Below are positions 2,198-5,063 of a stretch of DNA of 45,516 nucleotides, piece after piece. This DNA comes from a virus: positions 1-45,516 of IMG/VR virus record IMGVR_UViG_3300022939_000038. One strand, written 5' to 3'. The notes beneath the pieces are model-generated. The model ran no database searches and was not told where the DNA came from. It saw only the letters and a list, made by a program, of their open reading frames with translations. The position numbers were made by a program, and so were the translations under genes. Positions within the stretch are counted from its first letter, which is position 1. Every line of letters starts with the position of its first letter.

Positions 2198-2893
2198 ATG
2201 AGTTTACCATTAATTAAAGTGCCTGAATACAATTTGAATTTGTCAAATGATATAAAGGTAAGATTTAGACCGTTTTTAGTAAAAGAGGAAAAAGTTTTAC
2301 TATTAGCGATTGAAACAAGAGATGAAGACGAGATCACTAAAGCTTTTATTGATATTGTTCAATCTTGTGTTTTATCAGATGTAGATGTGACCAAAGTTCC
2401 GTTTTATGACTTTGAATGGATTTGGTTAAATATAAGAGCAAAGTCAGTTGGTGAAAATATTGAATTAAAATTAAAGTGTCCAGATGATGAGTCAATGATT
2501 GTTGATTACACTTTAAAAATTGAAGACATTAAACCAGATTTGAATAAGACGATTAATAATAAAATTGAGTTTGAACCAAACTATGGTGTAATTATGAAAG
2601 TTCCTACGATAAAAGATGTGGGAAGTAAAAAAGGTCTTGTTGAATTAAGTACAGGTTTAATACGTGATTGTATTCAAACTATTTACAACGGTGAAGAAGT
2701 GTTTGATAGAAAAGATATTGAAGTAAAAGAGTTAGAAGAATTTGTTGAAAATTTAACTATGAGTCAGTTTAAAAAACTATCTAAGTTTTTTGAAGAACTG
2801 CCACAAATTGAACATACTATAAAATATAAAAACCCAAAGACTAATAAAGAATTTGAGTTTGAAATGAAAGGTGCGGCTGATTTTTTTCAATAA
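2198..2893 (+). CDS. 26: Baseplate assembly protein, T4 gp26-like
   Basis: The 231-residue product resembles the T4 baseplate protein family that includes gp26 (208 residues in T4). Recognisable parts are VRFRPFLVKEEKVLLLA near the N-terminus, ITKAFIDIVQSC, and DFEWIWLNIRAKSVGE with a following LKLKCPDD segment. T4 gp26 takes part in assembly of the central baseplate hub. A strong GAGGAG ribosome binding site lies before ATG 2198. Its last codons are GAT TTT TTT CAA TAA, which form a slippery run. A -1 shift there continues into the gp51-like frame and gives a 293-residue fusion (join 2198-2887 and 2887-3078). Confidence 0.85.
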   Translation: MSLPLIKVPEYNLNLSNDIKVRFRPFLVKEEKVLLLAIETRDEDEITKAFIDIVQSCVLSDVDVTKVPFYDFEWIWLNIRAKSVGENIELKLKCPDDESMIVDYTLKIEDIKPDLNKTINNKIEFEPNYGVIMKVPTIKDVGSKKGLVELSTGLIRDCIQTIYNGEEVFDRKDIEVKELEEFVENLTMSQFKKLSKFFEELPQIEHTIKYKNPKTNKEFEFEMKGAADFFQ

Positions 2894-2909
2894 CCCTCTC
2901 ACATGAGAG
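2881..2909 (+). promoter_or_regulatory. Predicted -1 ribosomal frameshift site with stimulatory hairpin
   Basis: A run of seven T (2881-2887) is read as T TTT TTT in the gp26 frame, which allows both tRNAs to re-pair after a -1 slip. Eight bases later there is a hairpin: CTCTC (2896-2900) pairs with GAGAG (2905-2909) over an ACAT loop. The zero-frame stop TAA (2891-2893) lies in between. This is the standard layout of a programmed -1 frameshift signal. Confidence 0.75.
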
Positions 2910-3078
2910 CCTGGAGAATATCTATCGTACTAATTTTGCATTAATACATCATCACAAATATTCTTTAACAGAGCTTGAGAACATGATGCCGTGGGAGAGG
3001 GAAATTTATATTGAAATGTTACTACAATATTTAAGAGAAGAAAAACAAAGATTGGAAGAACAAAGAAGGAGTAAGTAA
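2887..3078 (+). CDS. 51: gp51-like baseplate hub assembly region, expressed by -1 frameshift from gp26
   Basis: This frame encodes 63 residues beginning SITLSHESLENIYRTNFALI and containing LTELENMMPWEREIYIEMLL and a charged C-terminal helix. It resembles the short hub-assembly (gp51) proteins of T4-like marine phages and also the -1 extension of tail assembly chaperones. It has no usable start: an in-frame TGA lies at 2878-2880, and the only ATGs are two adjacent internal ones in the ENMMPWE segment (about 2980-2985), past the conserved N-terminal half. It is therefore best read as the C-terminal extension of gp26 after a -1 slip. Its TAA overlaps the next ATG at 3078 by one base, the usual spacing of real genes here. 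Confidence 0.75.
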   Translation, partial: SITLSHESLENIYRTNFALIHHHKYSLTELENMMPWEREIYIEMLLQYLREEKQRLEEQRRSK

Positions 3079-3353: not shown

Positions 3354-5063
3354 ATGGCAAAGGCACCAAGAGGACCAAAAGTTAAAGACACCAAATTGAC
3401 ATTTGGTGAATCCACAGATACGTTTAGACCAAAGATTGGTCAGTTACGTAAAACTGAATTTGGATCAATTCTTGCAAAACAAAAAAAGAAGTTTAAAGAA
3501 GAAGGTGATAGTTACATCTTTGGTGAAACAATGGTCAAATATTTTGATCGTGTAAGAAAAGGATACAATTATACTGAAGAAAATCTAAAAAAAGAACAAA
3601 TCAGAAAACCTGTTATAGACTACATTTTTAATTATGGTTTAAGTTTAGATGGGTTAAGAGATATGGGATTTGATGAAATAAATGATTTTCAAAAAGTTAC
3701 ATCACAATACCTATCAGATTTAAAAAAATCAGGACTAAATGATAAAGAGTCAACAGTTGTAACAAATCTAGTTGGTGGAGTTAATGAAAGACTTAAAGAC
3801 TTATTAGGTGTAACGACAAGATTGAAATTTGGTGTAAAGGACTTTTTAAAACAGTTTGCACCATTAAAACTACTTCAAAGATATGCACCAGGTCCTGTTG
3901 CTGATTTTGCACAAAAAATAGAAAGTAGAAAGGATCAAGCAGAGCGACAACAACAACAAACAAGACGAGCATTAATAAAGTCTGGTAGAAAAAGTGGTTC
4001 TATTTCAACTGCCTCAAGTGATTTTGGTCCTAGTTTAGATACAGAATCTGGCAGAGAAGAAATTGCTAGTAGAACTGCCATGAGTAATGCATTAACTGGT
4101 GGTATTAAAACTCCTTCATTTGATAAAGAAACAATGGTTGAAGAAGAAAGAGAATCTGATGCTCAATTTGGTGAAACAAAAACAATATTAGAAAAAATAC
4201 TAGAGGCACAGTTAGAAACAAACGAACTATTAGGTGGTGATAAAAAGGCAGATGACTCAGGTTTTCTAGGTTTTGAACTACCAGACGTTCCATCAGAGGT
4301 AGTAGCTGCAGGTGCAGGAGCAGCTGGATTCAAATATAGAAAAAAAATAGCAAGCATGTTTGGTAAGATTTTAAAGGGTTTTGGTATTGCTACACCACTT
4401 GCAGCAAAAATGATAAACTATGGCGCACCCAAAGATGATTTAAAAGGTAGTGCTGATGATAAGGATAAAGATAAAAAGAAACAAAAATTAAAAGATGGCC
4501 AAAAACAATTATCAAAATCAAAAAATATACTTAAAAAGTCAACATCATTTGCTAAAGGTATTTTAAAACCATTGGCACCAATTATTGCGACATATGATGC
4601 AGTTACAGGATTTTTAAATGCTGAGGAAATATTACAAGCAGCTCCAGAGGAGACACTTACTTGGTATGAAAAATCTATTGCAGGATTATCAAAAGCATTA
4701 GATTCATTTACATTTGGCGCTTTGGATGCAAGTAAAACTGCTAGATTTTTGACTGGTAGAAGAACTGAAGAAGAAAAATTAGAAGACAGAGCAAACATAC
4801 CACCCATTTATGGCAATCCATCTGTTGATGAAGGTGCTAGTGTGGGTATGGATTCTTATGTTTCAACTCAAAAAGCAGATGAGATTATGGCCGAGAATAT
4901 GAGTAAAAATGTTGAAGCACAGGCATCTATAATCAATAGTAATAACACTGTAAATTCTAATAATGTGACCAACAATATAAGTAACACTCAAAAAGGTTCA
5001 AGTGGTTCAGTACCTTTAACACCAGAAAATCTTGCTAATGAACTTTTAACAAATTCTTACTAA
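3354..5063 (+). CDS. Tail tape measure candidate, gp29 position
   Basis: This 569-residue protein is close in length to T4 gp29 (590) and occupies the gp51-gp29-gp48 slot of T4 gene order. It is rich in Lys, Glu and Gln, with long predicted helices. There is a Gln-rich stretch around residue 195 and Gly/Ala-rich hydrophobic patches near 315-325 (VVAAGAGAAGFKY) and 335-350. The last 60 residues are Asn/Ser-rich. I see no enzymatic motif. If it sets tail length as gp29 does, the tail should be about the length of the T4 tail. Direct family recognition is weak; the call rests on position, length and composition. Confidence 0.55.
   Translation: MAKAPRGPKVKDTKLTFGESTDTFRPKIGQLRKTEFGSILAKQKKKFKEEGDSYIFGETMVKYFDRVRKGYNYTEENLKKEQIRKPVIDYIFNYGLSLDGLRDMGFDEINDFQKVTSQYLSDLKKSGLNDKESTVVTNLVGGVNERLKDLLGVTTRLKFGVKDFLKQFAPLKLLQRYAPGPVADFAQKIESRKDQAERQQQQTRRALIKSGRKSGSISTASSDFGPSLDTESGREEIASRTAMSNALTGGIKTPSFDKETMVEEERESDAQFGETKTILEKILEAQLETNELLGGDKKADDSGFLGFELPDVPSEVVAAGAGAAGFKYRKKIASMFGKILKGFGIATPLAAKMINYGAPKDDLKGSADDKDKDKKKQKLKDGQKQLSKSKNILKKSTSFAKGILKPLAPIIATYDAVTGFLNAEEILQAAPEETLTWYEKSIAGLSKALDSFTFGALDASKTARFLTGRRTEEEKLEDRANIPPIYGNPSVDEGASVGMDSYVSTQKADEIMAENMSKNVEAQASIINSNNTVNSNNVTNNISNTQKGSSGSVPLTPENLANELLTNSY

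Follow-up and report, generated by a model that had tools for sequence, protein, structure and literature searches.

The gp26 and gp51-like reading frames of the uncultured phage analysed here very probably constitute a single tail assembly chaperone (TAC) gene, from which a short and a long protein would be produced by −1 frameshifting. The window, that is, the whole stretch of DNA analysed, is the 45,516-nt record IMGVR_UViG_3300022939_000038, a 45.5-kb virus fragment whose closest cultured DNA match is Pelagibacter phage Mosig (Kyanoviridae; 72.8% identity over 42% of the query). Together with a broad comparison of relatives, this phage confirms, at the level of sequence, that gp26 and gp51 are products of a single gene in T4-like phages other than those of the T4 group, with the consequence that gp51 would be misannotated in many public records, where it is either given a doubtful start or missing.

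Organization of the gp26–gp51 junction

Within the window, gp26 (2198–2893, + strand) encodes the putative short form of the chaperone (TAC-N, 231 aa), which matches the PF12322 profile (T4_baseplate) over the whole domain (E=3e-54) and phrog_150 with comparable significance (E=1e-54). Its last codons are GCT GAT TTT TTT CAA TAA, and the run of seven T at 2881–2887 (+) reads T TTT TTT in the gp26 phase, the canonical X XXY YYZ form of a slippery heptamer. The gp26 stop, TAA at 2891–2893 (+), lies one codon past the heptamer, a spacing found in 71 of 90 relatives. The gp51-like frame (TAC-C; 2881–3078, +) occupies the −1 frame, being closed upstream by TGA at 2878–2880, open from 2881 to 3075 and terminated by the stop at 3076–3078. 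Its profile matches are phrog_634 (E=4e-27) and, within phrog_150, the C-terminal portion (E=2e-6), the latter match implying that the phrog_150 family includes joined proteins. No ATG, GTG or TTG occurs in this frame of the window ahead of the ATG at 2983, and a start at that codon would halve the conserved gp51 domain.

The original prediction had proposed a programmed −1 frameshift joining gp26 to a gp51-like tail that has no usable start of its own. Its coordinates all hold, including the 231- and 293-residue products, the T7 run, the TGA at 2878 and the spacing of a downstream hairpin, and so does the lack of a usable start. The proposal as such is supported by the in-phase heptamer, the open −1 frame and the conservation described below, and a programmed −1 frameshift appears by far the best reading of the junction. 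The product of −1 slippage would be a 293-aa gp26–gp51 fusion (TAC-NC) with the junction ADFF-SITLSHESLENIY and the predicted junction peptide ...ADFFSITLSHESLENIYR. A single copy of PF12322 is present in the window, and a second full-length copy with an in-frame tail was not found in the 45.5-kb fragment.

According to the proposed mechanism, the majority of ribosomes would terminate at TAA 2891 and release the 231-aa short form. A minority would slip back by one base at T TTT TTT while holding tRNA-Phe in both the P and A sites, probably aided by the hairpin at 2896–2909 and perhaps by an upstream SD-like AAAGGTG, and would continue to 3078 to complete the 293-aa long form. Slippage in the host, as well as its rate, is presumed here. 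Tail assembly in lambda-type phages involves the action of both a short and a long chaperone on the tape measure protein; by analogy with lambda gpG/gpGT, both forms predicted here would load the tape measure protein.

Conservation of the slip site and competing explanations

Relatives were gathered from IMG/VR loci and cultured phages, and 195 complete single-copy junctions were grouped into 94 clusters at 80% identity, with a stricter non-redundant set of 46 clusters at 50% identity used for the start-codon and stimulator tests. Of 80 IMG/VR gp51 relatives, 79 include gp26, and each of these has gp51 in the −1 frame relative to it. The −1 frame is open, with an identical frame offset, in 94/94 clusters. 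An in-phase T TTT TTN accompanies a homologous open −1 frame in 90 of these clusters, and the remaining four comprise three Ackermannviridae clusters and Vibrio phage D495. The A-site codon of the 90 slip-site clusters is TTC in 53, TTT in 21, TTA in 15 (L055 included) and TTG in one. T TTT TTN was found in 90/90 junctions versus 20/239 other Phe–Phe pairs of the same loci (Fisher p = 1e-61, clusters being treated as independent of phylogeny), and the slip site is also kept in loci of ~50% GC, where TTT is the minority Phe codon. The gp51 tail displays strong protein conservation across relatives.

Start-codon content bears directly on the alternative that gp51 is a separate protein whose translation is coupled to that of gp26 through a start codon close to the gp26 stop. 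An ATG close to that stop is indeed present in several relatives (P-SSM2, L007 and L014), and Vibrio phage D495, which has no slip site, carries TAATG. Against coupling, the frame in the window has no candidate start before 2983, 20 of the 46 clusters have no ATG, GTG or TTG between the −1 frame stop and codon 13, and an ATG is absent from that stretch in 33 of 46. The in-phase T run is moreover kept by all relatives outside Ackermannviridae and D495, ATG-bearing ones included, and T4 makes the gp51 region only within a long protein that also contains a gp26-type domain. We consider translational coupling very unlikely; an independently started gp51 gene was rejected, as no start is present in the window or in 20 of the 46 clusters. 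The original prediction had looked to related phages for conservation of the T run, the hairpin and the missing gp51 start, and had regarded relatives with a normal ATG as contrary evidence. The T run is conserved (90/94) and the start is missing in the 20 clusters mentioned above, whereas the hairpin is not conserved; some relatives do have an ATG near the junction, yet they retain the slip site outside Ackermannviridae and D495.

Runs of T are also suited to slippage by RNA polymerase, which would produce an identical fusion without any action of the ribosome. In 69 of the 90 relatives, though, the run comprises just 6 T, which is short for polymerase slippage, and it is always arranged as an in-phase X XXY YYZ, with Z varying between C, T, A and G. 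The stop usually follows one codon later, and the RNA downstream carries additional structure. This arrangement argues for the ribosomal −1 frameshift and makes transcriptional slippage a highly improbable source of the long form. Homopolymer runs are error-prone, but a pseudogene, or an assembly or sequencing error splitting one gene into two frames, has a practically negligible probability given that the junction is identical in two further IMG/VR records (99.98% and 99.77% identity over 5.2 kb), that the frame offset is the same in 94/94 clusters and that the tail is under strong protein conservation; the read error envisaged in the original prediction is rejected on the first two of these grounds.

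Candidate stimulatory elements

The hairpin downstream of the heptamer (2896–2909, +) is formed by CTCTC (2896–2900), ACAT and GAGAG (2905–2909), giving a stem of 5 bp that begins 8 nt past the slip site. Its MFE is −6.9 kcal/mol versus a synonymous mean of −1.0 (codon shuffles, z −4.8), and we regard it as a probable frameshift stimulator. Across relatives, the 45 nt starting 5 nt after the heptamer were compared with synonymous shuffles, yielding −5.9 versus −3.4 kcal/mol for the shuffled sequences (p=8e-9 for 90 clusters and p=2e-6 for 46 clusters, with phylogeny ignored). The excess of RNA structure is weak from +60 and absent from +90. A universally conserved hairpin was rejected, the structures differing by clade: the CTCTC/GAGAG pairing is confined to close relatives, and another clade has a GCCTCT/AGAGGC hairpin in which one locus (L200) replaces a C-G pair by G-C, a compensatory change.

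Upstream of the slip site, an SD-like AAAGGTG (2867–2873, +) places GG 11 and 10 nt before the heptamer, and GG at −11/−10 is present in 98–100% of the 90 relatives. The anti-SD energy at this element is −5.4 versus a background of −0.7, and the synonymous codons used are biased towards anti-SD pairing (p=2e-4 in the 46 clusters, phylogeny ignored). The element overlaps a Gly that is conserved in the protein, the anti-SD energy of other gp26 Gly codons is −4.9 versus −5.5 at the element in the same comparison, and the anti-SD signal of the window alone is not significant. Considering the near equality of the other Gly codons and the result for the window, the SD-like element was downgraded as strong evidence, and its role as a stimulator is suggestive only.

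Relatives lacking the slip site

In the Ackermannviridae (L092 and L117–L134), gp26 ends in GAR ATT TTC ATY TAA and has no T6 slip site, while the −1 frame still encodes a conserved gp51-like tail; the stop context is TAATG in L132 and TAATTT in L092 and L122. Vibrio phage D495 (L091, 1850–1900) likewise has no slip site, and a TAATG overlap provides its gp51-like frame with an ordinary start. No D495-type relatives were found in IMG/VR.

In T4, the original prediction had described genes 26 and 51 as separate, and they are indeed two genes, located on opposite strands. T4 gp51 (249 aa) matches PF12322 over residues 1–201 and phrog_150 over residues 3–248, a coverage indicating that a gp26-type domain and the gp51 tail are joined in frame within it. 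T4 gp26 corresponds to the short form and ends at the same FF, coded TTC TTT GAG, with no −1 frame. Both copies were identified in 11/11 T4-type loci, and the slip site and −1 frame at the gp26 end are absent in 10/10 T4-type loci with a complete gp26 end, so that T4-group phages have two genes in place of the frameshift of other T4-like phages; a single PF12322 copy was found in 16/16 non-T4 phage records. Duplication may have replaced an ancestral frameshift in the T4 group. The original suggestion that the frameshift links two chaperone systems needs revision on this point, gp26 and gp51 representing one TAC system, as the composite architecture of T4 gp51 illustrates. The coexistence of slip-site and two-gene phages constitutes a natural test of the purpose of the long form. 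One T4-type locus (L115, 1482–2255; IMG/VR 2974754850) has its gp51 gene divided between two overlapping frames, which may reflect either a sequencing error or a true lesion.

A broader evolutionary account, which we advance tentatively and hold at rather less than even likelihood, is that the slip site is ancient and frozen in T4-like phages, with stimulators turning over by clade and the long form being retained in various ways where the site was lost. As parts of this account, clade-specific hairpins would be maintained at about the same spacing with the upstream SD-like GG nearly fixed, T4-type phages would retain the long form by means of a duplicated in-frame gene, and Ackermannviridae and D495 would use restart or a non-canonical slip at ATT TTC ATY TAA. 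We found no description of such a restart or non-canonical slip at ATT TTC ATY TAA in Ackermannviridae or D495.

Chaperone identity and genomic neighbourhood

Structures were modelled from alignments made up of the window and IMG/VR loci only. The AlphaFold model of gp26 (pLDDT 92.8) has the HK97 tail assembly chaperone 2ob9 as its best PDB match (prob 0.85), although this match is weak (E 0.48, TM 0.40 on target), with 2ob9 appearing at ranks 1 and 10. The original prediction had compared the pair with lambda-type tail assembly chaperones, and this comparison holds. The model of the gp51 tail (pLDDT 80.7) gave no significant fold match in the viral structure library, and a PDB sequence search with the gp26 profile returned chance-level matches only, with no solved TAC chain.

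The gene order of the window comprises a tail tube-type protein, gp26/gp51, an 89-aa protein and a 569-aa protein, followed by gp48-, gp53- and gp5-type baseplate genes. The 569-aa ORF (3354–5063, +) is a putative tape measure gene by position only, lying between gp51 and the gp48-type tube cap; the gene after it is assigned to phrog_230 (baseplate tail tube cap). The ORF itself has no Pfam or PHROGs match and no protein match in 15 T4-like phage records. Most relatives with sufficient flanking sequence have a long ORF behind gp51, in many cases immediately adjacent to it.

Relation to known chaperone systems

Xu, Hendrix and Duda reportedly described −1 frameshift tail chaperones of dsDNA phages in 2004, including lambda gpG/gpGT. 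Like that system, the window has one gene with a predicted −1 frameshift near its 3′ end and two forms; gpG/gpGT lies upstream of the tape measure gene and gp26/gp51 upstream of the 569-aa ORF, which is placed in this role by position only. The slip sequences are different, GGGAAAG in lambda and T TTT TTT in the window. T4 gp26/gp51 has the same domains as the window, distributed over two genes instead of one.

Closer to the present case, Vladimirov, Gautam and Davidson reportedly found in 2022 (Virology 566:9–15, doi 10.1016/j.virol.2021.11.003) that several T4-like groups produce TACs by frameshifting and that the group of T4 itself has separate genes. Passages citing their study describe poly-T stretches as recognized sites of −1 slippage in T4-like TAC-N genes (PMC12846349) and state that some T4-like phages have one short and one long TAC gene instead (PMC10885494). 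As represented in those passages, frameshifting in T4-like TACs is not new, having been reported by Vladimirov, Gautam and Davidson in 2022; the window resembles the systems so described in its predicted short and long forms and its poly-T slippery site, and differs in belonging to an uncultured phage. In this light gp26 and gp51 of the T4 baseplate hub, long of obscure function, are recast as short and long forms of a single tape-measure chaperone, a view published in 2022. The passages of PMC10885494 and PMC12846349 that cite this work make no mention of downstream hairpins or of an SD-like element. Clade-specific hairpins beyond codon constraint, the upstream SD-like GG and the Ackermannviridae without a slip site may be new, as a modest addition.

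A comparable arrangement is described for the Pakpunavirus/Andersonviridae TAC locus, where a conserved −1 frameshift occurs at GTTTTT at the end of TAC-N and the −1 frame is often misannotated (PMC12846349). As portrayed in that source, the locus shares with the window a T-run −1 frameshift ending TAC-N but belongs to other families and uses GTTTTT in place of T TTT TTN.

The gp51-like tail is unannotated in the public records of Aeromonas phage Aeh1 (L086, 1941–2108), ACG-2014b (L097, 904–1085) and S-CAM8 (L098, 904–1085), the gap behind gp26 corresponding in each to a −1 coding frame. A zinc-ribbon-like CPKCG motif also occurs towards the C-terminus of many gp26 homologues; in cyanophage and pelagiphage versions it reads NPKT or similar.
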